Below, piece after piece: positions 65-48,395 of a DNA stretch of 64,000 nt; position 1 is the stretch's first letter; every line of letters starts with the position of its first letter. A program made the translations under genes and the position numbers. The notes under the pieces were generated by a model. It made no database searches and was not told the origin of the DNA. It was given only the letters and a program-made list of their open reading frames with translations. This stretch comes from an uncultured Prevotellaceae bacterium. Lineage in GTDB: Bacteria; Bacteroidota; Bacteroidia; Bacteroidales; Bacteroidaceae. Location: the NCBI GenBank assembly GCA_902780635.1, contig CACZGH010000011.1, positions 1 through 64,000 on the forward strand. The letters run 5' to 3'.

Positions 65-109
65 AACAATGTATTTTTTAGGTTAATTGGTGAATAAATT
101 ATTTCTAAG

Positions 110-141
110 GAGTTCAGGAGTCGAGGAGTTCAGGAGTTCAG
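110..141. repeat. Four-unit GAGTTNNG octamer array
   Basis: There are four perfectly phased 8-bp units: GAGTTCAG, GAGTCGAG, GAGTTCAG, GAGTTCAG. The array lies in the leader of the exported-protein gene at 1-64, downstream of the AraC gene. Three more arrays of the same family, also with exactly four units, occur at 20012, 48315 and 48364. Confidence 0.9.
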
Positions 142-3933: not shown

Positions 3934-4917
3934 TCAATATTCTAGATACGGGGCCAACCGCTCTATCATCTCAGGTGCAAACTCAGGTAACAGCCTCAGG
4001 TCATTGAGGTCATGGATGGAGCCACGCAACCTGCGATAACTGAGGATAGCGCGAGCCTGGTTGAAACTGATATAGGGGTGCTTGCGCAACTGGTCCTCAC
4101 GCAATTGGTTGATATTTAACTTATGTGTTGGACCCGCACTAACCAGCAGATATGGCAGGGCTTCCTGAGGGAAACCCTCTATCTCTAACAGCTGTCTAGG
4201 ATCATAAAAGCCACCCAGCTGGTCACGGTAGCGCACGATCCGACGAGCATAATATGCACCTATGCCTGGCACCTTACGCAACTGGGTAGTATCGGCCAAG
4301 TTGAGGTCAATGTGCTCACCAGCACTCAACTTGACAGGATATAGCAATGTATCACGCACGTAGCCACCAGACGAGGACATCCCGCCCTCACCAGAATGTC
4401 CAGGATAACCAGAGTTTCCGGAAAACCCGGAATGTCCAGGATTTCCGGTATTTCCGCTCTTTCCATGATGCCTTCTGCCATAGACCTCGGAGGCCGGCCG
4501 AAACTCCTCTGCAATACGAATATAGGGTGCAAGCCTGCGATACTGTCCCACCGTCAACCCATAGAGACGGGCAAAATCCTCTGGGTACGAATAGACACCC
4601 CCTTGAGCACGGTAACGATAGATGTTGCGCACCTGCCATGGCTGCAGTCCAAGACGAAGCAGCTGGGTGCTGTCAGCAGTATTGGGGTCGAAAGGGAAAA
4701 GTTCCACTTGGCGCCCCTCTGCCCCATACTGAGAAGCATGCGCCTCATCTCCCTTTGTCGCCGTCAAGACACTGTCGGGCATAGGATTGGGAGTCTCACT
4801 ATTGCCACGCCCGATGAGAAAGACAGCCACCAATGCCACCACCGCCACAGACAGAGCGACCATCAGCACACGGCGGTCTGACTTCTGAAAATAGAAAAAC
4901 TCTTTTAGAAACCCCAT
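3934..4917 (-). CDS. Membrane-anchored helix-hairpin-helix protein (ComEA-like repeats)
   Basis: The 327-residue protein has a short cytoplasmic N-terminus, one membrane segment (about residues 19-36, LMVALSVAVVALVAVFLIG) and three helix-hairpin-helix modules of the ComEA type: FDPNTADSTQL (about 75-135), IDLNLADTTQLRKVPGIG (about 205-260) and LNINQLREDQL (about 268-327). Such modules bind DNA non-specifically, as in the competence receptor ComEA. A role in DNA handling at the envelope is inferred, not shown. Between modules 1 and 2 lies a 28-residue collagen-like Gly-X-Y stretch, unusual for this family. The gene ends 117 nt from the HTCS start region and may be a single-gene unit. Confidence 0.8.
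   Translation of the reverse strand: MGFLKEFFYFQKSDRRVLMVALSVAVVALVAVFLIGRGNSETPNPMPDSVLTATKGDEAHASQYGAEGRQVELFPFDPNTADSTQLLRLGLQPWQVRNIYRYRAQGGVYSYPEDFARLYGLTVGQYRRLAPYIRIAEEFRPASEVYGRRHHGKSGNTGNPGHSGFSGNSGYPGHSGEGGMSSSGGYVRDTLLYPVKLSAGEHIDLNLADTTQLRKVPGIGAYYARRIVRYRDQLGGFYDPRQLLEIEGFPQEALPYLLVSAGPTHKLNINQLREDQLRKHPYISFNQARAILSYRRLRGSIHDLNDLRLLPEFAPEMIERLAPYLEY
4381..4464 (-). repeat. In-frame nonamer repeat encoding collagen-like Gly-X-Y
   Basis: Nine consecutive Gly-X-Y triplets plus a final Gly (GKS GNT GNP GHS GFS GNS GYP GHS GEG G) are encoded by 9-nt units resembling CCGGANNNT. It sits inside the helix-hairpin-helix gene as a linker. The repeat is visible at the DNA level, not only in the protein. 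Confidence 0.85.
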
Positions 4918-8708: not shown

Positions 8709-8855
8709 TTACGAGATAGACACAAGCGTGAAGGCCAGATAAGCAATGGCAAGAATGATCAATGCCACACAAATGATGCGGACCACTGTCTGTGCTTGTT
8801 TCTCTTGCTTGGCTTCACGCTGAGCACGCTTAAGGTTTCGTTTTTCGTTGGTCAT
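8709..8855 (-). CDS. 48-residue single-span membrane protein
   Basis: The ORF reads MTNEKRNLKRAQREAKQEKQ, then a membrane segment (VVRIICVALIILAIAYLAFT) and a short tail ending in a TAA at 8711-8709. The strongly basic, alpha-helical N-terminus followed by one transmembrane helix suggests an N-in inner-membrane microprotein. One base separates its stop from the CYTH gene start, so the two form an operon. No family is recognised. Codon use, position and the tight junction all support it being a real gene. Confidence 0.7.
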   Translation of the reverse strand: MTNEKRNLKRAQREAKQEKQAQTVVRIICVALIILAIAYLAFTLVSIS

Positions 8856-8897: not shown

Positions 8898-8972
8898 CTA
8901 GAGTGGCTAGATTTTCTAGAGTGTCTAGATATTCTAGATCTTCTAGATTTTCTAGATATTCTAGATATTCTA
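8898..8972. repeat. CTAGA nonamer array beginning at the prfB stop codon
   Basis: CTA occurs at 8898, 8907, 8916, 8925, 8934, 8943, 8952, 8961 and 8970, always at 9-bp spacing, mostly as CTAGANNNT. On the prfB strand each unit contributes TAG in the prfB reading frame. The first is the gene's own stop codon, and eight further in-frame UAGs follow. Confidence 0.95.
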
Positions 8973-10091
8973 GCTCTCTTCACTCACAGGAAACTCCATG
9001 AGATAGGCTTTGATGAAGCCATCGAGCTTGCCATTCATCACACCGTCTACATCGGTGGTCTGGTAGTTGGTGCGGTGATCTTTCACACGGCGGTCGTCAA
9101 ACACATAACTGCGTATCTGACTGCCCCACTCTATCTTCTTCTTACCGGCCTCTATCTTTGCCTGTGCCTCCAGACGCTTCTTCATCGCCCGGTCATAGAG
9201 TTGCGACTTGAGCAAACGCATGGCATTCTTGCGGTTCTCCAACTGCTTACGGCTCTCCGTGTTCTCTATGAGGATTTCCTCCTCCTCGCCGGTGTCAGGG
9301 TCGACATACTGATAACGCAGACGCACACCTGTCTCCACTTTGTTGACGTTCTGCCCACCTGCGCCTCCACTACGGAAGAGATCCCACGACACTTTGGAAG
9401 GGTCGACATACACCTCTATCGTGTCATCGACCAAAGGTGAGACAAAAACACTGGCGAAGCTGGTCATTCGTTTGCCCTGCGCATTAAATGGCGACACGCG
9501 TACCAGACGGTGGACACCACTCTCACTCTTGAGGTAGCCGTAGGCATACTCGCCACCCTCTATCTCCATGGTGACGCTCTTAATGCCCGCCTCATCACCG
9601 TCCTGTATATTGCTCACCGTCACCTTATGCCCGTGAGCTTCCGCCCAGCGCATATACATGCGCATAAGCATCTGTGCCCAGTCTTGACTCTCCGTGCCAC
9701 CGGCGCCACTGTTGATTTTCAGCACACAGTCCATCGGATCCTCTTTCTGGCGCAGCATATTCTTCAGTTCCAGTTCTTCGATAGCTTTGATAGCTTTGGC
9801 ATAATCAGCATCTACCTCCTCTTCTGTCACCATCTCGTCATGGTAGAAGTCGAAGGCGAGTTGAAGTTCATCAGCCTTGTCGCGCACATCTTTGTATCCT
9901 ACAATCCATCTTTCAAGGTCTTTCACCTTCTTCATCTGTTCCTGTGCCCTCTGCGGGTCATCCCAGAAATCGGGAGCCTGTGTGCGCAGCTGCTCCTCTT
10001 CGTATTCTATTTTCTTTCTGTCGATGTCAAGATAACGATGCAGCGCATCAGCGCGTTCCATGACATCTTTCAGTTGATCGCTTGTTATCAT
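8970..10091 (-). CDS. prfB: Peptide chain release factor 2
   Basis: RF2 releases the finished peptide at UAA and UGA codons. The 373-residue protein has the RF2 recognition tripeptide in context (RLVRVSPFNAQGKRM) and the catalytic GGQ loop (RSGGAGGQNVNKVETG). Many bacterial prfB genes carry a programmed +1 frameshift at the RGYL-UGA-C site. Here the equivalent segment (RYLDI, residues 19-23) is encoded CTT-GAC with no extra T and no internal stop, so the gene is uninterrupted. The stop codon is UAG, read by RF1, and is the first unit of a nine-UAG array. Octamer and heptamer arrays occupy the spacer upstream. Confidence 0.97.
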   Translation of the reverse strand: MITSDQLKDVMERADALHRYLDIDRKKIEYEEEQLRTQAPDFWDDPQRAQEQMKKVKDLERWIVGYKDVRDKADELQLAFDFYHDEMVTEEEVDADYAKAIKAIEELELKNMLRQKEDPMDCVLKINSGAGGTESQDWAQMLMRMYMRWAEAHGHKVTVSNIQDGDEAGIKSVTMEIEGGEYAYGYLKSESGVHRLVRVSPFNAQGKRMTSFASVFVSPLVDDTIEVYVDPSKVSWDLFRSGGAGGQNVNKVETGVRLRYQYVDPDTGEEEEILIENTESRKQLENRKNAMRLLKSQLYDRAMKKRLEAQAKIEAGKKKIEWGSQIRSYVFDDRRVKDHRTNYQTTDVDGVMNGKLDGFIKAYLMEFPVSEES

Positions 10092-10099
10092 CTTTTATA

Positions 10100-10160
10100 G
10101 TTGACAAGTTGACGAGTTGACAAGTTTTTTTAAGTAGACGAGTTGAAGAGTTGACAAGTT
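10100..10160. repeat. GTTGACRA octamer arrays (two blocks of three)
   Basis: Three units (GTTGACAA, GTTGACGA, GTTGACAA) occupy 10100-10123 and three more (GTAGACGA, GTTGAAGA, GTTGACAA) 10134-10157, separated by a T-rich decamer. They lie immediately upstream of prfB. The same octamer, inverted, recurs at 44373-44396. Confidence 0.9.
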
Positions 10161-10190
10161 ATTTGACTAACTAACTCCTAACTCTTAGCT

Positions 10191-10230
10191 ACTAATTACT
10201 AACTACTAATTACTAATTACTAACTACTTA
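10191..10230. repeat. ACTAAYT heptamer array
   Basis: Five perfect 7-bp units (ACTAATT or ACTAACT) plus a partial unit end on the stop codon of the acyl-CoA synthetase gene. On the synthetase strand each unit contains TAG and/or TAA, and a period of 7 moves these through all three frames. Confidence 0.9.
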
Positions 10231-19988: not shown

Positions 19989-20011
19989 TTTCAACTCTCA
20001 TAAGTAGGGAG

Positions 20012-20043
20012 GAGTTGAGGAGTTAAGGAGTTAAGGAGTTAAG
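20012..20043. repeat. Four-unit GAGTTRAG octamer array
   Basis: Four phased units (GAGTTGAG then three GAGTTAAG) lie between the convergent dGTPase and beta-helix genes. It has the same family and copy number as the arrays at 110, 48315 and 48364. Confidence 0.9.
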
Positions 20044-20046
20044 CCA

Positions 20047-22596
20047 TTACTCATCTATTCTTAACGTGAGATGATGAAGCATGGTGGTGCTCTCACCGCA
20101 AGAACCTGTATGCTGAAGACAGAAACCACCGAAAGTAGATGCCTCGACTGAAGCCTTCAGATGAACGGAAGTATGCAGCGCGGGGTCATCAGGCTGTGTC
20201 AGAGGTGTGTCGGTAGAAACGTGGGCGGTCAATTCCCCTTTAGTGTATCTCACGACGATATGACACCCTGTGCGGTAGCAGACAGCGCTGACTGGCTCCG
20301 TAAGAGGTGTCACCTTTCCCTGGTCGTATCTCACGAGATAGAAGTCTACCGCCTTGGCATACTTCACGGTGCGGATGATGCGCAAACCATAGCCCGACAG
20401 TGTGCGTGTATCGAATTTGAGGCAGATATCCATATACTGTCCGGTGGCACTGCCAAAACCCTGCCCTGCCGTCTTGGTGGGATCGACATCAAGCCTCACC
20501 TCCATATCGCCATAGTCACCCGTGAGAGGTGTGTACATCAGTCGTGCTCCACGCTGTGCCTGCAAGAGTCCTCTGCCGACAGCACCATTGAAACCCTCGC
20601 CATACTCCCACATCGGCTTGTTGCGGTCGAAAGTCCATGGAAACTCCTCTGTGTCAGCAGGTTTATATCCATCGACTGTCCAGAAGCCCTCCTTGACAAG
20701 AGGTTGCCACTGGCATGGGAAATCATGGAAGTCGGTCTCCACCACCTGAGGGGCTAGAGGATCTAGAGGGGCTAGATGATCTAGAGGGTCTAGATGATCT
20801 AGAGGGTCTAGACTATCTAGAGATTCTAGAGATTCTAGAGGTTTGGGATAGATGGCCGTTTTCATCTCCCCGTAAGGGCTTCGAGCATGCCGTGGGCGTA
20901 TGGACGCCATCAGATACTTTCCCCGGTTCTCCGGTTTGATTTTCCAACCCCTTTCAGGACTATCGTGGCTCACCGCCACAGGTATCGCCCCCATGCCACT
21001 CTTGTCTGATGAGAGATACCAGGTGATGTCTGACTCATCTCGATGACCTGCAGGTGTGTAAGTGTAAACCAAATGCGCGGAGTCGCCCTTGATGATGATT
21101 TTGGGTGCGGTTCTCCACACTGGCGCTGGCAGGTCACGACCCTTTAGGATCAGCACGGCAGCCCCTTCGAGCCCTTCATCTGTCGTGGCTGTGACGCAGC
21201 ACAGCAATGGGTCGTCGCCATCATAAGTTGAGGTGACACTGCATGAGCCATCATCCCGCTCCTCCAATGTGACGAAATCGGCCAAATCGGGCTGAACAGT
21301 CCACGTCAGTGGGCGGGCTTCCAAAGATGGGTATCCGCTATGTCGTATCTGCCTGGAAGTGAGCACGATAGGGTCTCCACCTGCTTTGACTGTGTCCCGT
21401 TCTGGATGGATCTTTATACTGGTATTGAAAAGACTCGTGTCCTGCCCTTTGGTCATCTCCATTGGAGCCCATCCGTCAGGTCCGGCTAAGAGTGCATTGA
21501 CGTTATAAACATCTTTTGAAGGGCGGAAATGTTGTAAAAGTTTTTTGTTCTCAATATTCACTGTCACACCTGCATATTTCCCTTCTATCGACAGAGGTTT
21601 TCCATTGAGGGTGACACCACTCTGATAGCAACGAAGCGAGGAAGAAGGATAAGGTGCCCATCCTATTTTAACATCCTTTGATACAGAGTGAAAACGGCAG
21701 TCAATCAGCGTCAGCGGCCCTGCCTGCTTGCAAAAATAGTGCTGTCGGCTCTCTCCTGTCAGATAGATGTCACAATCGAGTAGCACAGCCCCTGCAGGAT
21801 GGGTGGTATAGAAAGGCTTTTGTCCATAAAATTCAAAGTCACAATGTAGGTATACACCATTGCCTGTCAAGGCATCATCGGTACACTCGAAGTGGCAATC
21901 GTCGAATAGTATACGCCGTGCTCCATTGAGTGGATTCATGTTGAGTCGGCTGACAAACCTCACATTACGAGCCACGACTTTGTCGCCATGGCAATATGCC
22001 ACGTGCGCCTGCGTGATGGCAGACGAGCGGCGTGGCCGGTTTTTTTGAGGATTGCGTGGATAGACCAGGTCGACATTACAATAATTGCCCATCGTCAGAT
22101 TACTGACTTCCAATCCGTCACCCCAGAAGTCAAACATGGTGAAGTTGCCCACTGCTCCTTGCGTCTGTCCACGTTGCGATGCCAGCACCACATCATGTGC
22201 ATCAGGCGAAAGCCCTGCCAGATGCAGATACTGACATTTCACCACCATGCCAAAAGGCTCTCTCCCATTTTTTCCTATGGCCACTGTCGGGTCATCGGGG
22301 TCATCCACCCAATACACATCAGGTGCGATAAAGACGGTCATAGGTTGTTCGGGGGTACCGTCTATCACATGTAGCATAGCCTCCTGGAAGTGGCGATATA
22401 TGTATGGATTGGATGATGCGGCTGCGTCATCGAGCGTACCGTCGACCAAGAGATGGTACTGGTCGAGGGGATAGGTCACACCTCTGTATTCGAAACTATT
22501 GCTGCCTATAAAAAGCATGTCATTGCCGGCAGAGGCCGACAATGACATGAATATCATCACTTGCAAAAGCAGTGATATTGCTTTTTGCATGTTCAT
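20047..22596 (-). CDS. Secreted right-handed beta-helix protein (pectin-lyase-like fold)
   Basis: The 849-residue exported protein has a signal peptide (AISLLLQVMIFMSLSASAG). Residues about 60-340 show short repeated strands with Asn/Asp/His turns (VSNLTMGNYCNVDLVYPRNP, ARNVRFVSRLNMNP, LFDDCHFECTDDALTG), typical of parallel beta-helix carbohydrate-active or lyase-like proteins. An Ig-like region and a C-terminal lectin-like beta domain (about 640-849) follow, separated by a ten-fold Leu-x-x repeat encoded by the CTAGA nonamer array. ATG 22596 overlaps the glsB stop (TGATG), so it is translationally coupled to the lipid genes. A carbohydrate substrate is likely but unidentified. Confidence 0.72.
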   Translation of the reverse strand: MNMQKAISLLLQVMIFMSLSASAGNDMLFIGSNSFEYRGVTYPLDQYHLLVDGTLDDAAASSNPYIYRHFQEAMLHVIDGTPEQPMTVFIAPDVYWVDDPDDPTVAIGKNGREPFGMVVKCQYLHLAGLSPDAHDVVLASQRGQTQGAVGNFTMFDFWGDGLEVSNLTMGNYCNVDLVYPRNPQKNRPRRSSAITQAHVAYCHGDKVVARNVRFVSRLNMNPLNGARRILFDDCHFECTDDALTGNGVYLHCDFEFYGQKPFYTTHPAGAVLLDCDIYLTGESRQHYFCKQAGPLTLIDCRFHSVSKDVKIGWAPYPSSSLRCYQSGVTLNGKPLSIEGKYAGVTVNIENKKLLQHFRPSKDVYNVNALLAGPDGWAPMEMTKGQDTSLFNTSIKIHPERDTVKAGGDPIVLTSRQIRHSGYPSLEARPLTWTVQPDLADFVTLEERDDGSCSVTSTYDGDDPLLCCVTATTDEGLEGAAVLILKGRDLPAPVWRTAPKIIIKGDSAHLVYTYTPAGHRDESDITWYLSSDKSGMGAIPVAVSHDSPERGWKIKPENRGKYLMASIRPRHARSPYGEMKTAIYPKPLESLESLDSLDPLDHLDPLDHLAPLDPLAPQVVETDFHDFPCQWQPLVKEGFWTVDGYKPADTEEFPWTFDRNKPMWEYGEGFNGAVGRGLLQAQRGARLMYTPLTGDYGDMEVRLDVDPTKTAGQGFGSATGQYMDICLKFDTRTLSGYGLRIIRTVKYAKAVDFYLVRYDQGKVTPLTEPVSAVCYRTGCHIVVRYTKGELTAHVSTDTPLTQPDDPALHTSVHLKASVEASTFGGFCLQHTGSCGESTTMLHHLTLRIDE
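20754..20843 (-). repeat. In-frame CTAGA nonamer array inside a coding sequence
   Basis: Ten perfectly phased 9-bp units, all beginning CTAGA and nine ending in T, encode ten Leu-(Glu/Asp/Ala)-(Ser/Pro/His) triplets in the beta-helix protein (LESLESLDSLDPLDHLDP and on). It is the same repeat family as the array after prfB, read in a different frame so that TAG is not in frame. Confidence 0.95.
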
Positions 22597-23603
22597 CACA
22601 GCTGTTTTTTCGCTACATTACTGTAAATCATCTTTGCCATATCTCCAGATGACACATTCAAGATGTCAGGATTCTCTGTCACGAAAGAGTCGATATGTCT
22701 TTTACGTTTCTGCTCCAATATCTCATCCACCGCAATCAGGATGCCGGTCTCCTCCACGTCGCCAAAACCGTCGTTGATGGCAGTTCCAAACATTTTCATG
22801 GTAGGGCTCAGACCCATATATGCATTGACCAGAGGTGGGATGTTGATACCCAGTTTTCGGATCTCCGTGTTGAGAATCTTGTAATCCTCACGCAGTGAAT
22901 CCTGGTTGAGGATAGCGGCCAGTTCGTTAACGTCGGTCTCTATCTTCAATGGTTTCATGGGGATGATCAGGTTATCTTTGTCACTGAAATGCTTGTTCAG
23001 GAAATAGAGGATCATGTCACGCCCCTTACGGATGTAGGAGGGATACATGGTCATCTTTCCAAAGAAATACTTCACATCAGGCATAATGACCGTCAGGGCA
23101 CCAAGGCCATCCCATAAATTGTCGAGTGCGAAGAGGCTTTTTGAGCCCATCTTGCTGCTCTGGTAGGGCAAAGTGACGTAGGAACGTGCCAGTTCGACAG
23201 TCTGCGGCAAATATTCTTTGATAAATTTTTCAGAGAAATGAAACAAATGGCTGGTGGCCAGAATCGGTTGTCCATTCTTGTCGAAATCAACCTCTGTGCC
23301 CAGTTTGAAACGATAGCCACCGATGATTTCCTCTTCTTCCGGATTCCATACCAGCAACTGCTTATAGCAATTGTCCATCAGGTCGAACTCGTCCAAGTCG
23401 AGTTCTTTGCCTGTACCTCCACCGGCCGCGCGAAAAACCTCCTCGCGCTGCCGTCCGATTTCCCTGACGACATTGGGTGAGTCATGGATATCGACGATAA
23501 AGATTTTGTTATGACTTTTGTTGGTCATCCGCAACTGCTTATCGGGTGTCAGCTCACTTTTAAGCAGTTCTTTGTCTACGGGAGGGATAATAGGTTGATC
23601 CAT
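22596..23603 (-). CDS. glsB: Glycine N-acyltransferase of glycine-lipid synthesis (GlsB)
   Basis: In Bacteroides, GlsB transfers a 3-hydroxy fatty acid to the amine of glycine, the first step toward glycine lipids. The family resembles the ornithine-lipid enzyme OlsB. The 335-residue protein has the expected GNAT-like core (REEVFRAAGGGTGKELDLDE, DNCYKQLLVWN, IIGGYRFKLG, ELARSYVTLPYQSS) followed by a helical C-terminal half. It lies 17 nt downstream of the glsA homologue on the same strand, matching the known pairing of these genes. The identification rests on family resemblance and neighbour order. A general hemolysin-type acyltransferase is the alternative. Confidence 0.82.
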   Translation of the reverse strand: MDQPIIPPVDKELLKSELTPDKQLRMTNKSHNKIFIVDIHDSPNVVREIGRQREEVFRAAGGGTGKELDLDEFDLMDNCYKQLLVWNPEEEEIIGGYRFKLGTEVDFDKNGQPILATSHLFHFSEKFIKEYLPQTVELARSYVTLPYQSSKMGSKSLFALDNLWDGLGALTVIMPDVKYFFGKMTMYPSYIRKGRDMILYFLNKHFSDKDNLIIPMKPLKIETDVNELAAILNQDSLREDYKILNTEIRKLGINIPPLVNAYMGLSPTMKMFGTAINDGFGDVEETGILIAVDEILEQKRKRHIDSFVTENPDILNVSSGDMAKMIYSNVAKKQL

Positions 23604-24451: not shown

Positions 24452-24819
24452 TTTTTTGGTTGAAAGTTGTTTGTTGTTTTGGGAGTCGTTATGATGTGAC
24501 GACGACGAATTTCAATTCCACTATTAAATCCATATTTAAACTGCAAATTTAATGTAAGTTTTCTAAAAATTACATTTTTTTTCTAAAAAATGTCTTAAAA
24601 ATATGGATTCACCCTCATTTTTTTACTTTTTGACATAAAAAGCGTATGAATAGCGACTCTACTACCATGAGCTCCGGTCATCTCCTATCAACTGAATGGC
24701 GAAAGGCCATCAACCTTTTCACGATCACCATATCGAAGCGTCTCCTACAGATGTCAACAACACAAAATGACACGTAAAAGATGACATGTGTCAAGACCTT
24801 ATTTTTTTTTGAAAAAAAA
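24452..24819. other. Spacer between glsA and the division cluster
   Basis: These 368 bases are AT-rich. They hold the glsA -7 box, an AT-rich 9-bp hairpin (24572-24593) and a TGACAC/GTGTCA inverted repeat near 24768-24793. A 43-codon ORF at 24646-24777 is too weak to call. No RNA gene was recognised. Confidence 0.6.
24544..24551 (-). promoter_or_regulatory. -7 box for the glsA-glsB operon
   Basis: The minus strand reads TAAATTTG followed by C, about 93 bp upstream of the glsA ATG, leaving a leader of about 85 nt. Confidence 0.45.
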
Positions 24820-24844
24820 GTGGGGAAAAGTGGGGGATTGTGGG
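24820..24844 (+). promoter_or_regulatory. MraZ operator: three GTGGG direct repeats
   Basis: GTGGG occurs at 24820-24824, 24830-24834 and 24840-24844, a strict 10-bp period with 5-bp spacers. This is the arrangement to which E. coli MraZ binds upstream of its own operon. Here it sits immediately upstream of the -7 box, replacing a recognisable -33 element, so bound MraZ would contact the promoter directly. Confidence 0.82.
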
Positions 24845-24854
24845 GAAAAATACG

Positions 24855-31851: not shown

Positions 31852-31870
31852 AAAAGGATGAAAAAGAAAG

Positions 31871-31912
31871 ATGAAAGATGAAAGATGAAAGATGAAAGAT
31901 GAAAGATGAAAG
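31871..31912 (+). repeat. ATGAAAG heptamer array
   Basis: Six perfect 7-bp ATGAAAG units lie in the mraY-murD spacer, followed by looser GATTGGAAA-like repeats to about 31955. Except near the 3' end of the array, each ATG opens a five-codon frame (Met-Lys-Asp-Glu-Arg) that ends at a TGA formed by later units. Confidence 0.92.
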
Positions 31913-32025
31913 ATTGAGATTGGAAAATTGAAGATTGGAAATTATAGATTGGAAATGTAGAAATGTCGAAAAAGAAACATCGACACCTAAAAAACTTGTC
32001 AAAAAAAATGTATATTGAATAGAAT

Positions 32026-44349: not shown

Positions 44350-44372
44350 GTTGGTATTTGAATACTATTAAC

Positions 44373-44396
44373 TCGTCAACTTGTCAACTCGTCAAC
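44373..44396. repeat. GTTGACRA octamer array (three units, inverted)
   Basis: TCGTCAAC, TTGTCAAC, TCGTCAAC are three phased 8-bp units, the reverse complement of the family at 10100-10160. They fill the spacer between gyrB and the fucosidase, five bases before the fucosidase ATG. Confidence 0.9.
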
Positions 44397-44401
44397 TAAA
44401 A

Positions 44402-48290: not shown

Positions 48291-48314
48291 TGTTTTGAGG
48301 AGGTTTTTCTTGAG

Positions 48315-48346
48315 GAGTTCAGGAGTTGAGGAGTTGAGGAGTTCGG
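48315..48346. repeat. Four-unit GAGTTNNG octamer array (first of a pair)
   Basis: The units are GAGTTCAG, GAGTTGAG, GAGTTGAG, GAGTTCGG, preceded by TTCTTGAG and followed by ACAAATGA. A second array with the same flanks starts 49 bp later. Confidence 0.92.
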
Positions 48347-48363
48347 ACAAATGACTTCTTGAG

Positions 48364-48395
48364 GAGTTCGGGAGTTCAGGAGTTGAGGAGTTCAG
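48364..48395. repeat. Four-unit GAGTTNNG octamer array (second of a pair)
   Basis: The units are GAGTTCGG, GAGTTCAG, GAGTTGAG, GAGTTCAG, again flanked by TTCTTGAG and ACAAATGA. The two arrays form a 49-bp tandem duplication whose unit variants differ in order. Confidence 0.92.

Follow-up and report, generated by a model that had tools for sequence, protein, structure and literature searches.

Introduction

STRR repeats occur in cyanobacteria, and the palindromic elements of Rickettsia are longer, single elements which are inserted in frame in protein genes. Tandem operators are bound by ribbon-helix-helix proteins, with heptads recognized by omega and 8-mers by MetJ. Direct repeats of TAACTGA are described by MacGregor (2015, PMC4679880) as keeping the heptamer constant and, in the main species, as mostly located just upstream of start codons; long simple sequence repeats (5-11 nt) are named in the same paper. 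The programmed frameshift of prfB, the gene encoding release factor 2 (RF2), takes place at a UGA codon close to the beginning of the gene (PMC12421855).

Here we analyze an array of CTAG nonamers behind prfB in a 64-kb stretch of DNA, called the window, and in the genome to which it belongs (G000; 4.07 Mb in 57 contigs) as well as in related genomes. In our searches of openly licensed papers, we found no report of CTAG nonamer arrays.

Results

The array at the 3'-end of prfB

In the window, prfB runs on the minus strand from 10091 down to 8970 and encodes a protein of 373 amino acids with the Pfam domains PCRF and RF-1. Its reading frame is uninterrupted and does not contain the stop codon of a programmed frameshift. 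The 3'-end of the gene enters an array (8898..8973) of nine CTAG at 9-nt steps, starting at 8898, 8907 and so on up to 8970, with a core that is mostly TCTAGA and with three variable bases between the cores. Read on the minus strand in the prfB frame, this region (8900..8972) contains nine TAG codons, at 8972, 8963, 8954, 8945, 8936, 8927, 8918, 8909, and 8900. The stop codon of prfB, TAG at 8972-8970, is the first array CTAG read on the minus strand. These coordinates bear out the initial annotation, which had described nine TAGs at 9-nt steps in the prfB frame and a UAG stop codon that is itself the first unit of the array. The nine in-frame codons are not independent of one another: with a 9-nt period, all units necessarily share the reading frame of the first one. 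The next open reading frame downstream of prfB is a small one of 48 amino acids on the minus strand (8709..8855; no Pfam match at 1e-5), which starts 42 nt past the end of the array.

Three CTAGs in 9-nt register were matched 15 times in the window, every time within one of two arrays, and not once across 100 dinucleotide shuffles of the window. The prfB array is real and lies far above chance expectation.

Eight other short tandem arrays of 7- to 10-mers were found in the window (108-141, 10099-10160, 10170-10228, 20010-20043, 24816-24849, 31857-31914, 44370-44397, and 48313-48395). A stop codon is found no more than about 21 nt away from those at 10170, 20010, 31857, and 44370, but not from the remaining four. 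Among the other 7- to 10-mer arrays of G000, 10 out of 18 begin at -16 to +21 nt relative to a stop.

The prfB locus in related genomes

We compared the locus with 80 named relatives whose RF2 protein is 80-93% identical. A CTAG array behind prfB was found in one of them, uncultured Prevotellaceae RUG13814 (locus L113, genome G060). There the prfB stop codon is UGA, and no in-frame UAG occurs in the 86 nt available, the contig ending inside the array. None was found behind the prfB stop in loci L081-L109, of which L101 ends before the stop. Among 398 genus genomes, an anchored search yielded two with the array behind prfB, G000 itself and G344; this search may miss a few genomes, because the anchor occurs in 71 of the 80 named loci. 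The comparison of related prfB 3'-ends proposed in the initial annotation therefore gave an array-free locus in 79 out of 80 relatives and, by the anchored search, in 396 out of 398 genus genomes. Conservation of the array at prfB, as would be expected of RF2 autoregulation, was thus not observed (1/80 named relatives, 2/398 genus genomes), and a programmed-frameshift motif was not found in the uninterrupted prfB of G000 either.

The prfB genes of G344 and G060 are 90% identical in DNA and are followed by the array at matching positions. In both, the stop codon is UGA, which is read by RF2 itself. Five in-frame UAGs follow prfB in G344 and none in G060, because the first unit of the G344 array has decayed to eight bases. 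A common array with a different frame means that the array can persist while the frame is lost. The array is in frame in two out of three genomes that have it behind prfB (G000 and G344, not G060), a number too small to weigh. As to the stop codons of the 80 relatives, 41 are UAA, 21 UGA, and 18 UAG. Termination of the G000 prfB by RF1, which had been deduced from its UAG stop, is hence true but ordinary.

Seven out of eight loci at the order level (L102, L103, and L105-L109) have the classical frameshift site at the 5'-end of prfB. The same scan found no in-frame UGA with slippery CTTTGA at the 5'-end in the same-genus loci L080-L101. Behind the prfB stop, 7- to 9-mer arrays of other motifs were present within 150 nt in 22 out of 80 relatives (23 including L113), and 20 of these begin no more than 40 nt from the stop. 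In coding control stretches no short tandem array was found (0/80).

A dispersed family of CTAG nonamer arrays in G000

The genome-wide check for further CTAGA arrays, suggested in the initial annotation, revealed the same arrays in G000 at many other genes, either inside them or behind them. The pattern CTAGA(N4CTAGA)2 had 192 matches per strand, compared to 5 and 1 when the pattern was reversed. From array-start searches and 19 extracted stretches we derived 24 (CTAG N5)n blocks of 4-18 units each at 23 sites, one of which consists of two blocks out of register; the array-start patterns can miss arrays with an edge C or CT in register. 21 of the 22 intergenic blocks begin between -9 and +24 nt from a stop codon, where distances are accurate to a base or two since genes in the extracted stretches were called by a simple codon-usage script and have approximate starts. 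The single exception lies 156 nt from the stop. None of the 24 blocks was found between divergent genes. The genes upstream of the blocks belong mostly to different Pfam families, among them QueH, an arabinofuranosidase, a GH2 enzyme, cysteinyl-tRNA synthetase, TsaD, and GMP synthase. Recurrent upstream genes are two citrate-transporter genes and several glycoside hydrolases.

Two blocks are located in coding sequences, one in the window at 20754 and one at L066 3987. The latter (3987-4044) was placed between genes by the script and in reality is found in the tail of a helicase open reading frame. The former is the second array of the window and has ten units (20754..20838). It is situated in an open frame within an 850-amino-acid open reading frame on the minus strand (20047..22599; no Pfam match at 1e-5) and encodes LES/LDx repeats. 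A similar open reading frame of G060 (L217:30-524), compared by eye, does not contain the repeat at the corresponding place.

With a unit below about 11 nt, a tandem arrangement and many dispersed sites, the G000 blocks resemble short tandem repeat arrays. Near-identical units along an array, as in STRR repeats, were not found, positions 6-8 of the unit being variable.

Unit structure and avoidance of CTAG

In G000 the core is TCTAGA, with A5 and T9 each kept in 211 out of 217 internal units. The commonest base at positions 6, 7, and 8 accounts for 56, 35, and 38%, respectively. Only 2 out of 265 units were broken, and this count remained unchanged when up to 4 consecutive breaks were allowed; the constancy of the core is partly given by construction, because arrays are found by their CTAGs. 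Outside of arrays CTAG is avoided about fivefold, with 77 occurrences observed and 364 expected in 225 kb of G000 (the window and L061-L079), which is the strongest avoidance among the 16 palindromic tetramers.

Across genomes, CTAG and the 9-nt step are the only constant features. T-CTAG-A flanks occur in 202 out of 213 internal cores in G000 and in 109 out of 113 in G249. In most of G007 the flanks are T-A or A-T, and in G009, G393, and G401 they are mixed and mostly non-palindromic. A fixed orientation of the spacers relative to the gene was considered and found not to be firm, since in gene sense the spacers were purine-rich in 16 and pyrimidine-rich in 8 of the 24 blocks.

Frame and position relative to stop codons

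With a period of 9 nt, which is divisible by three, the units of an array are either all in frame or all out of frame. In G000, the TAGs of 7 out of 22 intergenic blocks share the frame of the closest stop codon upstream. In 13 genomes, most of which were picked as array-rich and of whose arrays a part was extracted, 33 out of 95 post-stop arrays were in frame, where one third equals 31.7. Not included in these 95 are 38 coding arrays, 32 at a large distance from a stop codon, and 7 for which no gene was called. The frame of the arrays relative to the upstream gene is at chance level. Hence, an excess of in-frame stops, as would mark fail-safe tandem stop codons, was observed neither in the 13 genomes nor in G000. 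The initial annotation had named random frames behind many unrelated genes as the outcome that would speak against a link to RF2, and this is the outcome given by the 95 post-stop arrays and the 24 blocks of G000. In 14 of the 33 in-frame arrays, a TAG of the array itself is the stop codon of the gene, as at prfB.

In the 13 genomes, a stop codon was called upstream of 127 intergenic arrays, and 81 of these arrays are located between -9 and +30 nt from it. The proximity to stop codons is not universal, with 0 out of 12 arrays in G009 and 0 out of 10 in G393.

Distribution across genomes

Runs of five CTAG were found in 183 out of 398 sampled genus genomes and were not found in the other 215. 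In the family, 66 out of 301 genomes from 11 out of 30 genera had such runs. Runs of three CTAGA were not found in any of 24 order-level genomes. Viral contigs also contain runs of four CTAGA at 9-nt steps, in at least 120 stretches (L219 onward).

In the near-complete genome G009, 13 of the 17 array sites found fall within 104 kb (C3:1599592-1703162). A mobile island as the reason for this clustering was rejected, as 18 out of 20 scanned proteins had Pfam matches and the genes look like ordinary chromosomal ones; among the genes of the cluster are those for pyruvate kinase, GMP synthase, GrpE, DnaJ, and GAPDH. Several G009 arrays (L395-L424) are flanked by arrays of GAGAGTT-type and CTCTCAA-type heptamers. 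Because these two types are reverse complements of each other, the flanked arrays are composite inverted repeats.

Arrays inside genes

Arrays were located within called genes in 17 out of 34 cases in G007 and in 12 out of 15 cases in G032. The genes concerned include those for an RNB-domain nuclease, UvrA, GcvP2, AroB, a KDO transferase, the small chain of carbamoyl-phosphate synthase (CarA), a GH3 enzyme, and valyl-tRNA synthetase (ValRS). Relative to solved homologues, and depending on the homologue, the length changes by 0 or +3 residues in GcvP2 with its two homologues, +1 or +7 in AroB, and +4 in CarA; in the GH3 enzyme and ValRS the change is about +9 and +22 residues, respectively.

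One of these arrays lies in RF2 itself. The RF2 gene of G007 contains four CTAG units at codons 98-108, which are translated to LVCLDLLESLE (L096 1792-1822; G007:C36:46494-46533). Relatives have an AKAIxAIE-like sequence at this position, and the length of the G007 protein is unchanged compared to 20 other same-genus sequences.

Five array sites are common to G007 and G032, with flanks that are 71-93% identical. At these sites the spacers differ in four out of five cases and the unit number in two out of five. Location in an open frame inside conserved protein genes, as in Rickettsia palindromic elements, is thus found in both genomes. Insertion of a fixed sequence is not: unit number and spacers vary, and the length change of RF2 is 0.

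Changes of the arrays along their length

The likeness of spacers within 137 arrays was compared to that in permuted arrays. For lags 1 to 5, the z-scores were -4.1, +8.9, -1.7, +3.4, and -3.7, followed by +0.4 and -1.9 for lags 6 and 7. In the pooled data, the similarity between spacers is accordingly raised at distances of two and four units and lowered at distances of one and five. Without G000, the lag-2 z-score was +7.3. The two-unit pattern is strongest in G393 and G000, with G393 (lag-2 z-score 7.4) carrying much of the signal, and was absent from G007, G032, and G203 (-0.9, 0.1, and -1.2). Lag 1 was raised in G306 and G203. In a simulation of five step schemes, raised even and lowered odd lags resulted from the two even-step schemes only. 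From the raised even lags and the simulations we infer slipped-strand changes of 18 nt.

Discussion

The array is found at about two dozen sites in G000 and in many relatives, and the link to RF2 therefore looks like chance, which is its most likely explanation. The in-frame UAGs behind prfB are probably a side effect of a dispersed, slippage-driven family of (CTAG N5)n arrays, whose CTAG is possibly held by a putative CTAG-reading factor. Such arrays would lengthen and shorten through slipped-strand events that involve two units (18 nt) at a time and would persist where they do little harm, i.e. in many species just past stop codons, or in protein stretches in which TAG is out of frame. Where the frame of TAG happens to match that of the gene, the first TAG would serve as the stop codon, as in prfB. 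The least certain step concerns the preservation of CTAG: either only CTAG units may keep slipping, or something may read CTAG. Translation termination is not this reader.

Two observations do not fit slippage alone. CTAG stays intact while its neighbours vary, which is not obviously explained by neutral slippage, and the array in the RF2 gene of G007 replaces sequence at constant length, which slippage does not explain. Our confidence is further tempered because the two-unit pattern and the proximity to stop codons each fail in some genomes. From the alternatives that had been raised initially, the chance capture of a short repeat agrees with these results, whereas the selected fence or RF1/RF2 sensor is at odds with the frame counts, the relatives, and the G344/G060 pair.

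A possible, if on balance doubtful, explanation is that the arrays are cooperative platforms for a putative protein recognizing CTAG at 9-bp intervals, either in DNA or in RNA, with the cores under purifying selection. The constancy of CTAG next to variable spacers would fit such a platform, and its avoidance elsewhere (77 versus 364 expected) would make the arrays distinctive. The flank preference that differs between genomes, the five sites common to G007 and G032 with different spacers at four of them, and the clustering of G009 sites within 104 kb point in the same direction. On the other hand, the arrays are located behind and inside genes of many functions, runs of five are missing from 215 out of 398 genus genomes, and the polarity of the spacers relative to the gene (16 purine-rich versus 8 pyrimidine-rich blocks) is not firm. 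More tentatively still, many species of the family may carry a dispersed mark, CTAG at nine-base intervals, for a putative factor to read. The mark would be maintained as a nucleotide sequence also within conserved proteins, including RF2 of one species, where it would dictate LDx or SRx stretches, and CTAG would be purged elsewhere; we regard this as unlikely.

It is improbable that the palindromic cores pair as an RNA hairpin behind the stop codon which ends or protects the mRNA. All arrays of G000 are predicted to form long stems, with -26.9 kcal/mol for the prfB array, and they lie behind stop codons; inverted heptamer arrays flank some G009 arrays, and palindromic flanks exceed independence in G007 (70 versus 50.8). 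The spacers, however, are not arranged to pair. Compared to spacer-permuted arrays, the mean z-score of the 24 blocks was +0.4, and the prfB array was less stable (+2.0). Moreover, palindromic flanks were below independence in G009 (4/58), G393 (18/118), and G401 (6/53), and many arrays are located inside genes. A selected RNA hairpin was thus rejected, because the order of the spacers adds no stability and the flanks are non-palindromic in several species.

A stop-codon fence or RF1/RF2 balance sensor selected specifically at prfB is highly improbable: it would accord with the nine in-frame UAGs in G000, the five in G344, and the lack in the genus of the classical frameshift sensor present in seven of eight order-level loci, but the frame is at chance (33/95), the array is absent from 79 out of 80 relatives, the G060 array is out of frame, G060 and G344 stop at UGA, and a survey of eubacteria is reported to have given no evidence of selection for additional stops (PMC6764699).

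With a dispersed, slippage-driven family as the probable origin of the prfB array, the question arises what holds a rare CTAG at exact 9-nt steps, both in intergenic regions and in conserved genes, in 183 out of 398 genus genomes. Either answer would be useful, be it a slippage drive able to rewrite protein segments or, if true, a CTAG-reading factor. A word of caution also follows for annotation, as repeats with a period that is a multiple of three can, as a by-product, give rise to series of in-frame stop codons downstream of genes.

Comparison with known systems

Like the programmed frameshift of prfB, the array at this locus concerns RF2 and a stop codon. In contrast to that system, prfB of G000 has no frameshift site, and the array is not its substitute in relatives. 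The TAACTGA heptamers (PMC4679880) differ from the CTAG arrays, in which only CTAG out of nine bases is constant, proximity to stop codons is seen in many species, and many copies reside in genes. With the ribbon-helix-helix operators the arrays share repeated sites at 7-9 bp steps and a constant core. Unlike these operators, they are not located at promoters, number about two dozen per genome, and have a cognate protein that is only putative. Finally, the CTAG arrays resemble the Rickettsia palindromic elements in that a palindromic element is tolerated in open frames of conserved proteins, but they differ from these in being tandem nonamers with variable spacers and a changing number of units.
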